A stretch of 64,000 nucleotides of DNA from Thermoclostridium stercorarium subsp. stercorarium DSM 8532 (GTDB lineage: Bacteria; Bacillota; Clostridia; DSM-8532), in NCBI RefSeq assembly GCF_000331995.1, contig NC_020134.1, positions 682,001-746,000 of the forward strand. Reading direction: 5' to 3'. The first letter of the stretch is position 1, and every line of letters starts with the position of its first letter. The position numbers and the translations under genes were made by a program. Below are positions 5,787 to 48,102 of the stretch, one piece after another. The notes below the pieces were generated by a model, which saw only the letters and a list, made by a program, of their open reading frames with translations, had not been told where the DNA came from and did no database searches.

Positions 5787-7367
5787 TTATGAATATTTCT
5801 TTTTATAATCCGACGGAAGAACGCCGGTCAGTTCCTTGAATTTTCTTATAAAATATCCGTAATCCGAATAGCCCACTTCTTCGCAGACTGCTGTTATTTT
5901 CATGTCAGTGCCTGCAAAAAGCGTCTTGGCGTGCTCTATACGCAGAAAATTTATGTAATCATTAAACTTACGCCCTGTTTTCTTTTTTATAATTCTGCTC
6001 ACAATCATCGGTGAAATCGAAAATTTTTCCGATATGCTCTGTATGCTGATATTTTTCGTGCAACAGTTAGCCTTAATGAAGTCAATTATCTCGTTTTCCA
6101 ACAATACAAGGGATTTGCCGGCGTTGCGGTTTATCTGTTCGAAAACGTAAGTGCAAAGGGATAAGGCCAGTTCCTTACACTTACCGTTCCCGTTTCCGAT
6201 AGCATCTATGAAATCCAGAAGGATGCTGCCTGCTTCAACGCCACATGCAGACGCCGTTTTCCCTATCATACCCGCAAGCCGGTACAGGCATATCGTATTG
6301 CTCAGTGTTGAATCGGCATTTTTGCCCAGTTCATCGAAAAAATTTTCAACTGCGCCAACTACTTGTTGATAGTCGTTCCCTTTTACCGCGTTTATAACTT
6401 TATCGAAAAGCCGTTCCGGAATTACCGACTCCATTTTCGCTATTCGTTCGCTGAAAACCGGCTTTTTGTGAAGTTCCTCATAACACAGCACGTTGTTTTC
6501 TGGTTGGAGAAGATAATAGGTATAAAGTTGTTCAATCTGCCTGCTGCATATGTCGATACTTTCAGGCATTTCATCGTAAGATACACCGCTTATCAGCGCG
6601 CTGAAGCTGTGGAGTCCGAAAACCCACGGATTTGGATGACTGAAAATTTCCTTAATCCTGCCTGCCAGTTCGGTATAATCGGGGAAGAAGTCCATGCCGT
6701 CATGCATTACAAGAATGTAATTTCCGTTACCGTTATAGAAAATACAGTTCTCATTTTTCACGCCTGCAATATTAAGAAAAAAATCATAAATTTTGCTGTC
6801 TGGAGCAGGATGTATGTTCGGTATGGTTATAAAACGTATCATTCGTACTTTTGCGCGCTGTGGAATATCAAATATAAAATGGGCTTTTCGTTTCAGTTTT
6901 TCGCCGCGCTTCCCGCTTGTGATCTCATTGTAAAGCTGGTTGGCGGTATACCGGATGAATTCAAGGTTTTCCTCGTTAATTCTTCTTTCGTTTTCGATAA
7001 TTTCGGCCACTCTGGAGAGCTCAGATGACAATTCTTCGGAATCCAAAGGTTTGGTCAGGTAACCGACAGCGCCAAGCTGCATGGCTTTTCTGGCATAGGA
7101 AAATTCGCTGTAACCGCTCAGCATTAGAAATTTCGGAACGGGTGACACAGTTTTGCGTATTTTCTCCAGCAGTTCCAGACCGTTTAAACCCGGCATGCGT
7201 ATATCGCATATTACGAGGTCGGGATGTTTTTCACAGATGATCGGAAAAGCGGACAAACCATCCGACGCTTCCCCTACTATTTCATAGCCTTCTTTTTGCC
7301 AGTCGACGAAAATCTTCAGTCCTTCAAGCACGGATGGTTCATCGTCCACAATGACTGCTTTGAGCAT
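5787..7367 (-). CDS. AraC-type response regulator (YesN-like), partner of the adjacent kinase
   Basis: 526 residues: receiver domain at the N terminus (VDDEPSVLEG; phospho-acceptor in VICDIRMPG; Lys in YLTKPLD), a long central region of about 280 residues and an AraC-type DNA-binding domain (about 425-525, with ISEKFSISPMIVSRIIKK and VCEEVGYSDYGYFIRKFKE). Its gene sits 18 bp upstream of the YesM-like kinase and is transcribed away from the binding protein gene at 7554, the usual layout of a two-component system driving an oligosaccharide importer. Likely target: the divergent SBP-permease-xylanase cluster (inference). Confidence 0.92.
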   Translation of the reverse strand: MLKAVIVDDEPSVLEGLKIFVDWQKEGYEIVGEASDGLSAFPIICEKHPDLVICDIRMPGLNGLELLEKIRKTVSPVPKFLMLSGYSEFSYARKAMQLGAVGYLTKPLDSEELSSELSRVAEIIENERRINEENLEFIRYTANQLYNEITSGKRGEKLKRKAHFIFDIPQRAKVRMIRFITIPNIHPAPDSKIYDFFLNIAGVKNENCIFYNGNGNYILVMHDGMDFFPDYTELAGRIKEIFSHPNPWVFGLHSFSALISGVSYDEMPESIDICSRQIEQLYTYYLLQPENNVLCYEELHKKPVFSERIAKMESVIPERLFDKVINAVKGNDYQQVVGAVENFFDELGKNADSTLSNTICLYRLAGMIGKTASACGVEAGSILLDFIDAIGNGNGKCKELALSLCTYVFEQINRNAGKSLVLLENEIIDFIKANCCTKNISIQSISEKFSISPMIVSRIIKKKTGRKFNDYINFLRIEHAKTLFAGTDMKITAVCEEVGYSDYGYFIRKFKELTGVLPSDYKKKYS

Positions 7368-18775: not shown

Positions 18776-18803
18776 TTTACATTTTTTTATTTTCAGGCTC
18801 TTT
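18776..18803 (+). promoter_or_regulatory. TcdR/UviA-type promoter of the 18858 gene
   Basis: TTTACA (18776-18781), 16-bp spacer, CTCTTT (18798-18803). Over 38 positions the flanking sequence is strikingly like that before the gene at 45418, with no gaps. TTTACA is the hallmark -35 of the TcdR/BotR/UviA sigma group, and a member of that group is encoded at 44410-44952. Confidence 0.7.
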
Positions 18804-18811
18804 TATAGGTG

Positions 18812-18825
18812 GTTAAGCGCTTAAC
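18812..18825. repeat. Perfect 14-bp palindrome at the predicted transcript start
   Basis: GTTAAGCGCTTAAC, beginning about 8 bp after the -10 element. It could be a repressor operator (central CG as in LacI-family sites) or a 5'-terminal mRNA hairpin. The equivalent promoter at 45326 also has a palindrome here but of different sequence, favouring an RNA role. Confidence 0.7.
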
Positions 18826-18857: not shown

Positions 18858-19451
18858 ATGGCAACGCCATTAACGGCCGATCAGATTGAGCAGGTAATTG
18901 CTGCTGGATATCCGAGAAGTAAAAAGAGTAATATTGACAACGTGTGGCAGGCGTTTAACGACGAGTATAATTATTGGATTGTAAATTTTGAAAATTTTCT
19001 CTATTTCATTAAGACATTTAAAACAATAAGCGAGCCAAGTGAGTGTCCGTCAAAGGCAAGTGCTTATGCACATGCTGTGTATTTTGAAGTATCTGATACG
19101 AAGCAAAGGCCGTTGAATTGCGATGCAATATTTGACTGTATGTATAATAGAAAAGTCGGATGGAATATCAGCTGGGATGAAGCATTTTCTTCTCTGGATG
19201 GTCTTAATGAGAAAAAAGGGGCCCCTTATTATTGGCATAATATAATGAAAGATCCGTTTTCTGACTGCTCATGGAGTTTGAATGCATGTCAAGCACTTGT
19301 ACGGGCGTATAATAACTGTCTGCGTGTACAGGATAATTCATATAAAAGGCTGACGAGTTTAGGAAGCAATTACTATTTCTTTAGCGGAAATAAAACCAGT
19401 AAACCCGGCGAGATTCAATTAGGCGATTTCTACTTTAGACCTGAATTTTAA
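18858..19451 (+). CDS. Leaderless protein of unknown function, possibly SleB/CwlJ-like cell-wall hydrolase
   Basis: 197 residues, rich in Cys, Tyr and Trp, with no signal peptide or membrane helix. Not firmly recognised. The segment ASAYAHAVYFEV...AIFDCMYNRK (about 66-98) and the later NYYFFSGNK resemble the SleB/CwlJ-type Hydrolase_2 pattern (catalytic Glu in a YxE context, then an NR motif, then a late YF), so a peptidoglycan-cleaving role is possible. ATG at 18858 is chosen over the in-frame ATG at 18849 because GGGAG ends at 18848, too close to the latter. The same start layout (ATGATnTTTATGGC) and the same promoter type occur at 45418, suggesting joint control by the sigma factor at 44410. 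Confidence 0.6.
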   Translation: MATPLTADQIEQVIAAGYPRSKKSNIDNVWQAFNDEYNYWIVNFENFLYFIKTFKTISEPSECPSKASAYAHAVYFEVSDTKQRPLNCDAIFDCMYNRKVGWNISWDEAFSSLDGLNEKKGAPYYWHNIMKDPFSDCSWSLNACQALVRAYNNCLRVQDNSYKRLTSLGSNYYFFSGNKTSKPGEIQLGDFYFRPEF

Positions 19452-19543: not shown

Positions 19544-20560
19544 TTACTTAAAGTTTTTATTAAATATTACAACAGTTTTTCCTGTTGATTTGCTAACCCC
19601 TTTTATTACCTTACCTTTTTCATAGGTTAAGCCGGTTATGTCGGGATCAGGCTTAAACAGTGTTTCGCCGTTTTCGTTGACAAGCAAATAAGTGCCTTTT
19701 TTTTCATCGAAATGTATATAGACATCCATATAACTTTCTGTTGCCAACTGATGTTCATATTTGTTCGCATACTGATACTGACAATCGTAAATGAAATCCT
19801 TCTGGCTTTCCAGTAACTCTTCATAACTGTTATATTCCGCAACGGTTTTATTTTCTTTTATGTCATATATGTAATATTTATTATTCTTTTTGTATATGAA
19901 TTTCTTGTCGTCTCCGAAGATTGTATACTGTCTTGTATGGGCTGAGTTCTCGTCTGATTCATAGTAAACTTCCAATCCTTCAAGAAAAATATTAAGGTTT
20001 TTATCCAGCAAATAATAGTCTGTGTGGGAATGGTCGGTATCGAAAGTATCCCTGCAAATGAAAATGCCCGGTTCAGGGTAGTATGTTTCAACATAGGACT
20101 GGCGATCTCTGACAATGTTTCCGGATTTGTCGATTATGACATATTTCTGGAGGGTGTTATCGTATACGGAGGCATATCCCGAGCTGCTGAACGGGCTAAT
20201 TTGTCCCCATTCCTTCTTCATTACCACATTACCCTGCAGGTCCATGAAGCCATAATAAACGGTGCCGTCTTCGCCGGGAACGGTGGAGAAAGTCGCGATA
20301 CCGTTGGAATATTTGATACTGTCTAAATCAATAAATCCGCTCAATTCCTTATCCAATGTAAAAGGTTCCAAATCTCCTGTGTCTCCGTTTAAATAAATAA
20401 ATCCGTAAAGATCGCCTTTCTTATAGAAACCTATGTCCCCTGCATCCTTGAAATAATCGAAATCCGTAATCACGACGAAACTGTTGTTCTGTTTTTTGCA
20501 ACTGCACAGAATTAAAAGGCATGCCACGAGAATTAAAACTTTTGATATCCGCCTAATCAT
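19544..20560 (-). CDS. WG-repeat lipoprotein
   Basis: 338-residue exported lipoprotein: Arg-Arg start, hydrophobic helix, lipobox ILCSC with Cys at about residue 21. The mature part carries WG/KWG-type repeats (GFIYLNGDTGD, YGFMDLQGNVVM, YVIIDKSGNIV, YLLVNENGETLF), which fold as beta-propeller-like repeats; molecular role unknown in general. A broken relative lies at about 42925-43742. Ribosome site AGGAGG at the start. Promoter not evident. Confidence 0.8.
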   Translation of the reverse strand: MIRRISKVLILVACLLILCSCKKQNNSFVVITDFDYFKDAGDIGFYKKGDLYGFIYLNGDTGDLEPFTLDKELSGFIDLDSIKYSNGIATFSTVPGEDGTVYYGFMDLQGNVVMKKEWGQISPFSSSGYASVYDNTLQKYVIIDKSGNIVRDRQSYVETYYPEPGIFICRDTFDTDHSHTDYYLLDKNLNIFLEGLEVYYESDENSAHTRQYTIFGDDKKFIYKKNNKYYIYDIKENKTVAEYNSYEELLESQKDFIYDCQYQYANKYEHQLATESYMDVYIHFDEKKGTYLLVNENGETLFKPDPDITGLTYEKGKVIKGVSKSTGKTVVIFNKNFK

Positions 20561-43978: not shown

Positions 43979-44395
43979 TTATATTTTTGGATTGTCAGAA
44001 GGGTTATTATGCAATTTTAATAACGATTCTTTCAGTATTTTGGGGATTGGAAGTCCCATCCTTCCTGCGTTTTCCATAATACTGATACCCTCATTGGATA
44101 AATAGAATGCGATTATCATGGTTCTAAGTGAGTGGCCTGTGCCTATTAAATATTTGTCGATTACATTTCCCACGGCGACCAAAATAAATATCGTAATTTT
44201 TTTGCAAATACCCCTGAAGCCTATTTCGCTTGATACTTTCTTATTGCGAACGGCGAGCAGGACCCCGGTGACATAGTCCAATACAACCAGGGCAATTAAA
44301 GAATATATAAGTGAGTCAGGCTCTCCCATGAGCCACCCTAAAACGCAACCCAAAAGTGCGAAAAGTACTTTTGACTTTTCTAATACCGAACCCAT
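43979..44395 (-). CDS. Holin of the TcdE / phage holin 4 family
   Basis: 138-residue small membrane protein with about three to four hydrophobic segments (VLFALLGCVLGWLM, SLIYSLIALVVLDYVTGVLLAV, ITIFILVAVGNVIDKYL, and MIIAFYLSNEGISI). Family signatures: DYVTGVLLA, IGFRGICKK, FYLSNEGISIMENAGRMGLPIPK. Relatives form membrane pores for phage lysis or, as TcdE, for release of proteins lacking signal peptides. It lies 14 bp after the sigma factor gene with an AGGAGG site, so the two form an operon. No phage structural genes are nearby, so a secretion role is more likely than lysis of a prophage. Confidence 0.9.
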   Translation of the reverse strand: MGSVLEKSKVLFALLGCVLGWLMGEPDSLIYSLIALVVLDYVTGVLLAVRNKKVSSEIGFRGICKKITIFILVAVGNVIDKYLIGTGHSLRTMIIAFYLSNEGISIMENAGRMGLPIPKILKESLLKLHNNPSDNPKI

Positions 44396-44409: not shown

Positions 44410-44952
44410 CTAAAGCTTGTCCAAATAAGCTTTGCGCAATTTTTTAAGGACTCTGTTTTTCATCTGGTTGACTGCCTGTCTTGAAACGTTCTGGGATTTT
44501 GCTATTTCGGTTACGGTATAGCCTAAGAAATAGATCATGTAAATTATTTTAAATTCCTGCTTTGTTAGGATTTTCTTGATGTAATGCAGCTCACAGTCGG
44601 AATAAACGTCGGTGGTGGATGGAAGAGATTCGATGTAATACCGCTCTTTGTCATTCAGCTGTGAATATAATGAGATGTTACGCAGCCGCTTGATTTGTAT
44701 TAGTCTTTTGACGTAAAAACTGTGAATTGAAGTCCGGATGTAAGAAACTATGCTTTCTTCCCGCTGATTTTTAATGTTGCTGATTTGAAGGTTATTAAGT
44801 AACGAAATTAAATCTGCAAGGAGATCATTATATGCGTCTTCATAATTTAGCTTATACGCATATTTTTTCAGCAATGGATTGAATTTGTTGATAAGCACAA
44901 TAGCAGCGTTACCATTTCCATTTTGCAATTTTGCAATAATGTCAATGGTCAT
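44410..44952 (-). CDS. TcdR/UviA/BotR-like alternative sigma factor
   Basis: 180 residues. The N-terminal half resembles sigma region 2 of the toxin-gene sigma group (FNPLLKKYAYKLNYEDAYND against TcdR FKPLVKKLSRVLHYEEGETD, recalled from the family), and the C terminus is region 4 (IYFLGYTVTEIAKSQNVSRQ followed by AVNQMKNRVLKKLRKAY), very close to TcdR. Such factors direct RNA polymerase to toxin or bacteriocin promoters with -35 TTTACA. ATG at 44952 is chosen (AAAGGTGG upstream); an in-frame GTG at 44964 is an alternative. It is cotranscribed with a holin, as UviA/UviB and TcdR/TcdE are linked. Confidence 0.9.
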   Translation of the reverse strand: MTIDIIAKLQNGNGNAAIVLINKFNPLLKKYAYKLNYEDAYNDLLADLISLLNNLQISNIKNQREESIVSYIRTSIHSFYVKRLIQIKRLRNISLYSQLNDKERYYIESLPSTTDVYSDCELHYIKKILTKQEFKIIYMIYFLGYTVTEIAKSQNVSRQAVNQMKNRVLKKLRKAYLDKL

Positions 44953-44954
44953 AA

Positions 44955-44992
44955 TCCATCCCACCTTTCAAATGGTAAAGAGATGGGATGGA
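44955..44992. repeat. Inverted repeat over the sigma gene -10 and ribosome site
   Basis: TCCATCCCA (44955-44963) and TGGGATGGA (44984-44992), perfect 9-bp arms 20 nt apart. The arms lie in the promoter spacer and just upstream of the ATG, so it could act as an operator or, in DNA or RNA, mask the start region. Confidence 0.65.
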
Positions 44993-45004
44993 AGTATTTG
45001 TAAA
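44977..45004 (-). promoter_or_regulatory. Self-type promoter of the sigma factor gene
   Basis: On the minus strand TTTACA (45004-44999), 16-bp spacer, CTCTTT (44982-44977). Same elements and same spacing as at 18776, which suggests that the sigma factor drives its own gene, as TcdR does. Confidence 0.65.
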
Positions 45005-45325
45005 CATTGTGAAAAAAGAAAATTATTTTTTCTTTATTTGCTTACGCACCCTTATAAGAAATGGATGATAACATAAACCAACCCCTGCCTGTTTCAGATT
45101 CTTCAAAGTGACATAAAATTTATAGTTTCATATACAAAAACAAGGAAAATTTATTTAGATAACATGTTTGGAAGTAATTATTTGAATTTATGAAAAAGCT
45201 ATATCTTAAGGAGAATAAGATTTTTATTTTGGGAAATACTTTTTTGTTCTGATTTTTTATATGGCGTTTAAAGCTTATTCTTGATTTTCTTACTGCTTAC
45301 CCCGTTGCATTTAATCGATACTATG
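45005..45325. other. Divergent intergenic region between sigma and glycosidase genes
   Basis: AT-rich, about 320 bp, between the two divergent TTTACA promoters. No gene, RNA or repeat recognised. Confidence 0.5.
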
Positions 45326-45353
45326 TTTACATTTATTTCCTTTTAGTTTCCTT
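45326..45353 (+). promoter_or_regulatory. TcdR/UviA-type promoter of the phosphodiester glycosidase gene
   Basis: TTTACA (45326-45331), 16-bp spacer, TTCCTT (45348-45353), then TATAAGTG. The first 11 positions (TGTTTACATTT) and the end (TTTATA-GTG) are identical to the promoter at 18776, with unbroken alignment. Confidence 0.7.
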
Positions 45354-45363
45354 TATAAGTGAA

Positions 45364-45383
45364 AATAAATCCCGGGATTTATT
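45364..45383. repeat. Perfect 20-bp palindrome at the predicted transcript start
   Basis: AATAAATCCCGGGATTTATT, about 10 bp after the -10 element, the same relative place as the 14-bp palindrome at 18812 but with different sequence. Confidence 0.8.
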
Positions 45384-45417: not shown

Positions 45418-46212
45418 ATGGCAGCCACTTTTGGCTCTGAATTGTACACCGTGAATGGCAAAAAGGTCAGGTTAATGTGGTTGGAAGCGGGGATAGACGA
45501 ACTCACTATACGAAATATTGGCGAGAATAGTTTACGTACGGCTAAAGATGAAAAAGGAAATCAGCTATATGGTGTTAACGGAGTGTTCTTTCAAATGGTA
45601 GAGCCAGACAAAGGTAATTTGTATGGTTATGCAATAAATAACGGTGCTCCCATAGGTCCAAATGAGCGAGGCTCATGGAACAGCGGCGGTAATGGGTTTA
45701 TGGTGTATTTGAAGAAAGAGTTGCCTGATAAAACTTTCCTATTTGTATCAAATAATGCTATGCAGACTGATGACAATAAAAACCAATTCCCTGTTACGCA
45801 CAAAGGTTATACAGTGCAAATGAGCGATGTCAAATGGGCAGTAGGAGGAATTAGTCTGCATTTAAGCGAAAATTTCTCAAAAGCGGCTGATTATTACTCA
45901 AGATTATCAAATGATAAAGAGTGGGATGTTGATAACAAAGCGGATCGTCCAAGAACGGCAATAGGATACAAAGGCGGTAAGAAAATCATCTTGTGTACAA
46001 TATTTGACGGGGATGATATAACGAAGGACGGAGCAGGATACGGATGTAATTTATGGGATGTAAGAACCATTATGAAAGACAAATTCGGCTGTACTATGGG
46101 TTTGAACCTGGACGGCGGCGGTTCAACTCAAATATCCTATAAAGAAAACGGGAAAGATTGTTATCAGGGATTCGGCAGGGCAAGCTACTGTATGCTGTGT
46201 GTTCCGATGTAA
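45418..46212 (+). CDS. Leaderless phosphodiester glycosidase (NAGPA-family) protein
   Basis: 264 residues of the phosphodiester glycosidase (NAGPA/DUF2233) family. Core signatures: VNGVFFQM, a mid-protein GGISLHL, RPRTAIGYKGGKKIILCTIF with the following DG, and the C-terminal GLNLDGGGSTQISY. Relatives hydrolyse GlcNAc-1-phosphodiester bonds and are usually exported or lysosomal and act on wall-type glycopolymers, but no signal peptide is present here: the protein begins AATFGSELYTVNGKKV. ATG at 45418 (GGAGG 9-13 bp upstream) is preferred to 45409. With the divergent holin operon, export through the holin is a reasonable hypothesis. Confidence 0.85.
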   Translation: MAATFGSELYTVNGKKVRLMWLEAGIDELTIRNIGENSLRTAKDEKGNQLYGVNGVFFQMVEPDKGNLYGYAINNGAPIGPNERGSWNSGGNGFMVYLKKELPDKTFLFVSNNAMQTDDNKNQFPVTHKGYTVQMSDVKWAVGGISLHLSENFSKAADYYSRLSNDKEWDVDNKADRPRTAIGYKGGKKIILCTIFDGDDITKDGAGYGCNLWDVRTIMKDKFGCTMGLNLDGGGSTQISYKENGKDCYQGFGRASYCMLCVPM

Positions 46213-46362: not shown

Positions 46363-47805
46363 TTATTTCAAAATTAAAGCGTCGAGATGCCCGTCGTTCC
46401 TTGAAATGTAAATCTCGTTACCAGAAACGTAAATAACGCTTGGTGAGTGGTCAACAACCGGGATATCAAGTATGGGATATACCGGCAAATTATAATCGTC
46501 TACCTGGTACAGATATTCACCCGAATCCGGGTTAAATACGTGAATTTTATCATTGCTGACAATTACCAGCCGGTTTTGAATAATAAGCGGGCTGTAGGCT
46601 TCCGGCGGGTCAAAGGAATAGCCGCATTCCCAGAGCAAATCCGACGTATCCAGTGAAATACATTTAATTTTCTCAGGGGTTGTGTAAATAAGTTTATTCT
46701 GATAAACCACCGCCCCCAGTAACGTATCGTTTTTTGAAAACAATTCATTTTTCTGTGAATTTGAATATAACGAAAAGGATTTTGTGAATAAATTGCCGTT
46801 GTCTTCTTTTTCATATGATTTAACAATTGAAAATTCGCCGTCCAGAAGGTACAACAGATTAATTCCCCCCGTAGGAATCGAATCCAACACCTCGCCGGTA
46901 TTGAAATCTATTTTCCTGAAGCAATCTTCGAAGGTTATCCATTGTGTGTTAGTATTTTTCGATAAAATCTGGTACTGCTTTGATTCAATCACGTCAGGCA
47001 GCATTATCATGGGATGGGGACTTTCCGGGAAAAGGTTGCCTTCCACTTTCCATTTCATTTGTCCGGAGCTTGGTTCATATGCAGCCAGACCGTCTTTTTG
47101 GCTTACAATGATGTTATTCATTTGCCTCTGTAATGATATAAGCACTTCATTCTGTTCCAGTTCTTTTTCCCAAAGTACTTCACCGTTGGTGACATCCAGC
47201 ACCATAATTGTATTCAGGTTGTATGGCTGAACGGCAACTGTTTTGTCTGTAATTGCAAGCCGTCTGATTTCAAATGAAAAAATTTTTTCCCAAAGTAATT
47301 TACCGGTGGTTATCTCAATGCATTGTAGCCTTGTATCGTCATCTACGGATGGTTTGGTACCAATGAGTATTGTATTTTCAGGCTCGTTAATACAGTAGTG
47401 AATGGGATAATAGCCACCGTATACCGACCATATTTTTTCGCCCGTATCCTTGTTTAAACCATATAAATACGTGTCTGAATGATAGCCGCTGATTTGATTG
47501 TCATTACCGTAGGCGATCAATACCTGACCGGTGTCATCAATGGGGTAGTTGTTGTCCAGATCACCACAAAAGGTCCATTTGCTTTGGTACATGTCTTTCC
47601 ATGATCTGATTGAGGACTTTGTCTCTTCATTATTATTTTCTTTATTATTGTCAGCATTGTCTTTATAGTTTTCGTCATCTTCAGCGGCATTATGTATATT
47701 TTCCTCAGTTACCGGTTCGTGAGTGTCATGGGACAAATTACTGCAGCCCGACAATGCTGCAAGCATTATGAATGCTATGATGATAAAAACGCTGGATAAT
47801 CTCAT
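46363..47805 (-). CDS. PQQ-like beta-propeller lipoprotein
   Basis: 480 residues: N-terminal hydrophobic helix with lipobox LSGC (Cys at about residue 21), an Asn/Glu/Asp-rich spacer of about 45 residues, then a beta-propeller of PQQ-type repeats (LNKDTGEKIWSVYGG, IEITTGKLLWEKIF, LDVTNGEVLWEKELE, YEPSSGQMKWKVEG, FNPDSGEYLYQVDD). Probably a surface binding or assembly protein; specific role unknown. ATG at 47805 is preferred (GAGGTG 9 bp upstream) over an in-frame ATG at 47829. Its promoter is at 47857-47885. Confidence 0.85.
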   Translation of the reverse strand: MRLSSVFIIIAFIMLAALSGCSNLSHDTHEPVTEENIHNAAEDDENYKDNADNNKENNNEETKSSIRSWKDMYQSKWTFCGDLDNNYPIDDTGQVLIAYGNDNQISGYHSDTYLYGLNKDTGEKIWSVYGGYYPIHYCINEPENTILIGTKPSVDDDTRLQCIEITTGKLLWEKIFSFEIRRLAITDKTVAVQPYNLNTIMVLDVTNGEVLWEKELEQNEVLISLQRQMNNIIVSQKDGLAAYEPSSGQMKWKVEGNLFPESPHPMIMLPDVIESKQYQILSKNTNTQWITFEDCFRKIDFNTGEVLDSIPTGGINLLYLLDGEFSIVKSYEKEDNGNLFTKSFSLYSNSQKNELFSKNDTLLGAVVYQNKLIYTTPEKIKCISLDTSDLLWECGYSFDPPEAYSPLIIQNRLVIVSNDKIHVFNPDSGEYLYQVDDYNLPVYPILDIPVVDHSPSVIYVSGNEIYISRNDGHLDALILK

Positions 47806-47856
47806 ATAATACAACACCTCATTTTCCAATAATTAGTATATTAATCACATATAATA

Positions 47857-48027: not shown

Positions 48028-48102
48028 GGGGATGTAACTCAGCGGGAGAGTGCCACAATGGCATTGTGGAAGTCGAGGGTTCAAATCCCTTCATCTCCAC
48101 CA
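48028..48102 (+). tRNA. tRNA-Ala (anticodon GGC), CCA encoded
   Basis: Complete cloverleaf: acceptor GGGGATG/CATCTCC with the alanine identity pair G3-U70, D stem ACTC/GAGT, anticodon stem CCACA/TGTGG around ATGGCAT (anticodon GGC, reads GCC/GCU), T arm GAGGG-TTCAAAT-CCCTT, discriminator A and encoded CCA (48100-48102). Confidence 0.93.

Follow-up and report, generated by a model that had tools for sequence, protein, structure and literature searches.

A TcdR/UviA-like sigma factor, a recurring promoter element and a putative autoregulated regulon of leaderless proteins in Thermoclostridium stercorarium

The 64,000-nucleotide stretch of Thermoclostridium stercorarium subsp. stercorarium DSM 8532 analysed here (NC_020134.1, positions 682,001 to 746,000; hereafter the window, whose own numbering is used throughout) contains a gene for a TcdR/UviA-like sigma factor and three copies of a candidate promoter element, in which TTTACA is followed after exactly 16 nucleotides (N16) by CTCTTT or TTCCTT. 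One copy lies ahead of the sigma gene itself, one ahead of a divergent gene for a glycosidase-like protein and one ahead of a distant gene that starts at 18858. The genes and sites concerned are the following.

44410-44952, minus strand: TcdR/UviA-like sigma factor (ATG start at 44952; the longest frame begins with GTG at 44964)
43979-44395, minus strand: TcdE-type holin, Phage_holin_4_1 (TIGR01593)
44977-45004, minus strand: sigma-gene promoter, TTTACA-N16-CTCTTT (exact pattern, profile R1, ungapped matrix)
45326-45353, plus strand: glycosidase-gene promoter, TTTACA-N16-TTCCTT (exact pattern, profiles R1 and R2, ungapped matrix)
18776-18803, plus strand: 18858-gene promoter, TTTACA-N16-CTCTTT (exact pattern, profiles R1 and R2, ungapped matrix)
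45418-46212, plus strand: leaderless phosphodiester glycosidase-like protein (NAGPA), divergent from the sigma gene
18858-19451, plus strand: leaderless protein P0004 of no known family, the distant target
46363-47829, minus strand: lipoprotein with PQQ-type propeller repeats, a candidate partner, tail-to-tail with the glycosidase gene
19544-20560, minus strand: lipoprotein with a WG-like repeat, a candidate partner, tail-to-tail with the 18858 gene

The sigma protein is small and of sigma-70 type, with matches to region 4 and a score at the cut-off of TIGR02937. Its second-best model is that of BotR, TIGR03209, on which it reaches 36.5 bits against a cut-off of 138.35, and it is therefore not a BotR. 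Region 4.2 contains the SRQ motif, which has been proposed as a marker of the TcdR group (PMC4031146). The holin passes TIGR01593, the toxin-secretion/phage-lysis model, with 96.7 bits (cut-off 40.2); a structure predicted from nine aligned sequences has four long helices and one short one, with a predicted local distance difference test score (pLDDT) of 71.5. In the window, as in eight of 12 related loci, the sigma gene is followed by a holin gene. No in-frame start that would add a signal peptide was found for either the glycosidase gene or the 18858 gene.

Within the window the pattern TTTACA-N16-YTCYTT (Y being C or T) occurs exactly three times on the two strands together, against a mean of 0.09 in 100 shuffled windows, none of which reaches three. 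A preliminary description of this DNA had claimed three promoters of identical N16 spacing and had found by eye no other TTTACA in the window with this -10 at this distance, and both claims are borne out by the count. The likeness over 38 bp that it had noted between the two target promoters is likewise real: 28 of 38 positions are identical from TTTACA onward and 30 of 38 in the best 38-bp frame, and this pair is the best among the 3003 pairs of the window's 78 TTTACA sites. An ungapped matrix built on 25 sites in other genomes (without the near-duplicates L016, L020, L023 and L101) ranks the sigma, 18858 and glycosidase promoters first to third in the window at 33.5, 23.2 and 17.4 bits, followed by positions at 9.7 bits, which overlaps the 18776 site, and 8.4 bits. 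Simulated DNA of similar composition (6 Mb) has 0, 0 and 3 positions respectively that reach these three scores, which makes the glycosidase promoter the weakest of the three taken alone. Between the two divergent genes of the window, sigma and glycosidase, no sigma-70-like promoter was found (shuffles: mean 3.0, standard deviation 1.9).

The element accompanies the sigma gene in other genomes. At an expectation value (E) of 1e-8 a sigma relative is present in two of 61 related genomes, the source genome and genome G027; relatives occur in 11 loci of a species-level collection, and a profile search of 391 genomes of the class gives matches in 35, mostly low-scoring. In each of the 12 loci L014-L025 the sigma gene has TTTACA-N16-[CTA]TC[TC][TC]T ahead of it; nine of these elements fit the strict pattern and those of L014, L021, L023 (CTCTCT) were found by inspecting the same place. 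TTTAC[ATG]-N16 with a like -10 stands before 11 further genes in ten of these loci, the sites of L015 and L016 being near-identical. A gapped profile, R1, was built from 21 sites, none of them from the window; run on six of these genomes, it returned 17 sites below E 0.01, every one at a sigma gene or at a cargo gene, a gene whose product is a candidate for export. Thirteen of the 17 were places already known and four lay outside the training set: in Caproicibacter, at a second, cut copy of the sigma gene and at a gene for a leaderless C39-like protein, and in two Ruminiclostridium cellobioparum genomes at genes for a leaderless NlpC-like protein (both names were read by eye; Pfam returned neither). 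Three weaker R1 matches that were inspected had nothing resembling a sigma or cargo context. Two records of a phage collection carry the element as well, one of fecal origin (L124) at two cargo genes, the holin gene and the sigma gene, and another (L125) at the sigma gene. In five related genomes lacking the sigma gene no significant site was found (best E 0.156), and the sigma-bearing G027 has one at its sigma gene (E 5e-4). At the sigma genes of 16 regions with more distant sigma factors (L063-L078) this element is absent; several of these regions have, by eye, TTTACA with a different -10, and L065 has a BhlA holin and an amidase.

Across the 2.97 Mb of the source genome R1 places the sigma promoter first (29.3 bits, E 2.1e-6) and the 18858 promoter second (17.2 bits, E 0.016). 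Profile R2, made from 15 target-type promoters only, also ranks the sigma promoter first (E 0.007); the three R2 sites ranked between it and the 18858 promoter match only in part or with gaps, and no leaderless gene was seen downstream of them. No further convincing site was found in the source genome, so the regulon here would comprise three promoters only. As a separate observation, the R2 matches near 1360427 and 961281 (own genome, C1) lie in similar GTTTAC...GTTGAAAC stretches, which by eye have the look of CRISPR-type repeats.

Several results speak against a regulon of this kind. The bare pattern has nine matches in the whole genome against seven for a reversed control, so that by itself it proves nothing; taken alone it would, by the criterion of the preliminary description, tell against the claim, and the genome scan was dropped as proof of a regulon; of the genome-wide search that the preliminary description had suggested, what stands is that context sets the three window sites apart, the other six matches scoring 9.7 to -5.7 bits on the ungapped matrix, below all three. 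The glycosidase promoter is weak alone under R1 (rank 4, E 1.4), and under R2 the 18858 promoter drops to rank 5 (E 2.5) and the glycosidase promoter stands at rank 6 (E 3.0); R2 was accordingly set aside as independent proof, being too weak on its own. Four of the 11 target sites in the related loci (L015, L016, L019 and the second of L022) were read by eye with the motif in mind. The only homologue of P0004 in 391 genomes, that of G027, carries a signal peptide, and in the scan of G027 its promoter site falls short of E 1 although it belonged to the training set. Only seven of 12 aligned sigma factors have SRQ, the other five having TRQ, with threonine for serine. The -10, mostly CTC[TC]TT at exactly N16, differs from the GTTATA/GTTAAT of BotR, and more distant UviA/BhlA-type loci lack it; the mismatch with BotR is not decisive, since the -10 is said to vary within the TcdR-related group (PMC4885068).

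Set against these points, comparative evidence supports a TcdR/UviA-type regulon that would be autoregulated through contact of the sigma factor with its own promoter. The earlier claim of a sigma regulon that includes the sigma gene is upheld by the 12 sigma-gene elements and the 11 further sites, and is qualified by the signal peptide of the G027 target and by transcription starts that are predicted ones. The sequence itself shows that the element keeps a fixed spacing and is conserved together with the sigma gene, that a holin gene is present, that signal peptides are missing and that lipoprotein genes stand tail-to-tail. From these it appears likely that the sigma factor encoded at 44410-44952 uses the three promoters, activating itself and the export through the holin of leaderless envelope proteins against which the lipoproteins are probably protective. 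The sigma factor would act at its own gene, with the holin gene behind it, at the divergent glycosidase gene and at the distant 18858 gene; the holin would let the folded leaderless proteins out of the cell, where they would act on cell envelopes, and the neighbouring lipoproteins would guard the producer.

The sigma gene has a further feature that bears on how such a loop might be held silent.

44955-44992, minus strand: inverted repeat of the sigma leader, with one arm (left, 44984-44992) in the spacer between -35 and -10 and the other (right, 44955-44963) covering the ribosome-binding site

Covariation was assessed over ten leaders (L016, L024, L025 and the phage-collection records excluded; L024 and L025 show other repeats) on a structure drawn from the window's own sequence. 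In these leaders 84.4% of cells pair, against at most 51.5% when the structure is slid, and there are eight double-changed cells against 2.5 in shuffles, with 0 of 500 shuffles as high; the measure of further pair types tells the other way, not being above shuffles (123 of 500). Four leaders folded as upstream-started transcripts give z-scores of -2.3 to -4.2, and the window's short transcript gives -0.3. The covarying hairpin would mask the ribosome-binding site in those transcripts alone that start further upstream. Transcripts entering from upstream would fold the site into the hairpin and stay silent, and those from the sigma factor's own promoter would begin inside the hairpin and lack its left arm, so that the sigma factor would be made mainly after its own loop has fired. 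Gene e of phage T4, encoding lysozyme, has the same geometry, a hairpin masking the start region on long transcripts and late promoters in its 5' strand (PMC3014915); there the lysozyme is gated, whereas here it would be the sigma gene, and the hairpin is a predicted one. It is possible that the repeat is instead the DNA operator of a repressor, as it overlaps spacer and leader and a changing operator would also give covariation. However, this is rather unlikely for several reasons: G-U pairs occur in two of the sequences, the right arm lies over the ribosome-binding site, the four leaders fold well as RNA, and the T4 gene offers a precedent for the arrangement.

The nature of the cargo was considered over 16 genes: two each from the window, L022 and L124, and one each from L014, L015, L017, L018, L019, L020, L021, L025, L117 and L118, with the near-duplicates L016 and L101/L119 omitted. 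In 15 of the 16 products no signal peptide was seen, and nine have a recognised wall-lytic domain, namely peptidoglycan-binding repeats with a phage tail lysozyme (four), a DUF1906 glycoside hydrolase-like domain (two) and CHAP, DPBB and amidase (one each). The L017 lysozyme is 60-64% identical to phi29-type gp13 among the matches listed (15 of 960) and matches 3csr with E 3.6e-58. Three cargo proteins of Caproicibacter (L022 1775-2698, L022 3855-4520 and L117 3861-4550) have in common a C-terminal domain, some 82 residues long and 79-84% identical; their N-terminal parts are unrelated and their partner lipoproteins dissimilar. A lipoprotein gene stands tail-to-tail with 12 of the 16 cargo genes, both window targets included.

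Other features of the set count against wall-cutting cargo with partner lipoproteins. In seven of the 16 cargo no wall-lytic domain was recognised, and neither window target is recognisable as a peptidoglycan hydrolase; for P0004, a structure predicted without an alignment has a pLDDT of 36, and a SleB-like reading made by eye was rejected, since neither Pfam (searched up to E 10) nor the sequences of the PDB supported it. As to the partners, ten of the 12 pass the lipobox rule and those of L014 and L117 fail it and were accepted by eye; at L118 and L019 the partner is another protein with a strongly hydrophobic stretch, and the L025 cargo and the L124 amidase have no partner gene close by. 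Lipoprotein family A5 gave chance-level matches only among PDB sequences (best E 0.35).

Given the lysin type of several cargo, one kind being of phi29 gp13 type, and a holin from the phage-lysis/toxin-secretion family, the regulon may be real and yet serve programmed lysis of the producer, as a domesticated phage cassette in which the lipoproteins merely delay the event. This is the less probable outcome, since some carriers have several cargo enzymes with dissimilar lipoproteins and with N-termini swapped on a common C-terminal domain, which fit outward-acting effectors better, and since neither cargo of the window is an obvious lysin. Another interpretation, that the sigma factor drives the export of ordinary enzymes of envelope remodelling or scavenging and that the adjoining lipoproteins have nothing to do with immunity, draws on the window itself, where the partners are propeller and WG-repeat lipoproteins and the cargo a glycosidase and a protein of no known family; moreover, lipobox-type open reading frames are not rare (19 of 172 in 13 sources, the partners included, with the holin as one false match). 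It is nevertheless improbable in view of the tail-to-tail lipoproteins at 12 of the 16 cargo, different ones for each. That the three sites match by chance or through low complexity, without relation to the sigma factor, as the chance frequency of the bare pattern genome-wide and the three random positions per genome equivalent that match the glycosidase site might suggest, is hardly credible beside the fixed spacing in 12 of 12 loci, the top three window ranks obtained with other genomes' sites and the lack of a significant site in five relatives without the sigma gene.

The likely regulon of leaderless, holin-exported envelope proteins has close counterparts. The group 5 sigma factors TcdR, BotR and UviA share with it the -35 TTTACA, SRQ in region 4.2, a promoter of the same type at their own gene, leaderless cargo and a nearby holin (PMC4031146, PMC4885068, PMC10467148), but their targets are host-directed toxins and those here are envelope-type enzymes. 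In the UviA-UviB-Bcn5 loci of C. perfringens and C. algidicarnis a sigma factor, a holin and an endolysin occur with a leaderless bacteriocin for which a wall-lytic domain is predicted (PMC9527704); these loci differ in having a BhlA-family holin instead of Phage_holin_4_1 and other cargo, and section 6 of that paper mentions no lipoprotein partner. Toxin secretion of the PaLoc type (TcdR, TcdE, TcdL), taken together with type 10 secretion, likewise has a TcdE-type holin beside a group 5 sigma factor, and TcdE is able to move unrelated endolysins (PMC6200909). There the cargo are large toxins with an endolysin remnant, whereas in many of the relatives considered here the cargo are themselves wall enzymes; the type 10 trait of a holin encoded with a peptidoglycan hydrolase is seen in those relatives, neither window cargo being identified as one.

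Sigma factor, holin and leaderless cargo are thus known together from large clostridial toxin loci and Bcn5 bacteriocins (PMC9527704). What would be new is a non-toxin regulon of several cargo with a -10 of its own, lipoprotein pairing and a leader hairpin, for none of which a counterpart was found in the open-licence literature of PubMed Central (PMC); in the same literature no description was found of hydrolases with lipoprotein partners under a TcdR-type sigma factor, which leaves their absence elsewhere unproven. A wider proposal, tentative and somewhat more doubtful than not, is that such loci are exchangeable sets of holin-exported wall-cutting effectors with cognate lipoprotein immunity, under a TcdR-type sigma factor whose gene is shut by a hairpin to all transcripts except those from its own promoter, and that the toxin loci of pathogens are one specialised offshoot. 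The literature covered describes toxin-type sigma factors in connection with toxins and with bacteriocins of Bcn5 type; a related switch outside toxin loci would offer a safer setting in which to study how TcdE-type holins pass folded leaderless proteins, and would bear on the origin of the sigma-holin-cargo layout of toxin loci. The lipoprotein pairing points to a form of antagonism between Gram-positive bacteria that has so far gone unrecognised, and the hairpin provides a concrete model of an all-or-none switch.

Behind the -10 of some of the cargo promoters, including both of the window, there are perfect palindromes.

45364-45383, plus strand: 20-bp perfect palindrome behind the glycosidase -10
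18812-18825, plus strand: 14-bp perfect palindrome behind the 18858 -10
L124, behind 7457 and behind 6379, both minus strand: further palindromes
L022, behind 1702 and behind 3740: further palindromes
L025, behind 11780, minus strand: further palindrome

Perfect palindromes of 10-26 bp lie closely downstream of the -10 in seven of 15 cargo promoters; loopless arms of at least five bases occur in seven of these 15, against 264 of 9814 background windows, and the arms summed over 14 sites come to 72, against 53.4 (standard deviation 3.6) in shuffles. The palindromes differ in sequence even inside one genome, and the two of the window are unlike each other, which argues against one common operator. 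As hairpins at the 5' end of the RNA they were rejected, folding no better than shuffles in the window (z 0.05 and -0.45) and in one case from L022 (z -0.07), with the exception of one of L124 (z -2.8).

Sigma relatives occur in three records of the phage collection, all at 37% identity or less, and also on two plasmids and two viral contigs (the viral ones at up to 40% identity). A phage or plasmid origin of the sigma gene was considered and not retained. A synteny test with a downstream gene failed, as none of the three other genomes of the genus has that gene. At 48028-48102 of the window, about 3 kb from the sigma gene, there is a lone tRNA-Ala (GGC) gene; since the gene that follows it is missing from those three genomes, the region may be variable.

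Two further observations concern the cargo genes of the relatives. Two large DUF1906 cargo that are homologous, L019 8639-9963 and L074 4199-5298, stand under different sigma groups, and behind each are two convergent small genes, the product of the first having a strongly hydrophobic stretch. The promoters of the lysozyme-type and DPBB cargo genes are followed by a leader segment that is conserved, gaag..cttc and then cggcgcgcgacattt or a variant related to it, at L015 near 6040-6085, L017 near 2420-2465, L018 near 2808-2850, L020 near 2645-2690 and, in L014, just behind 4258 on the minus strand.
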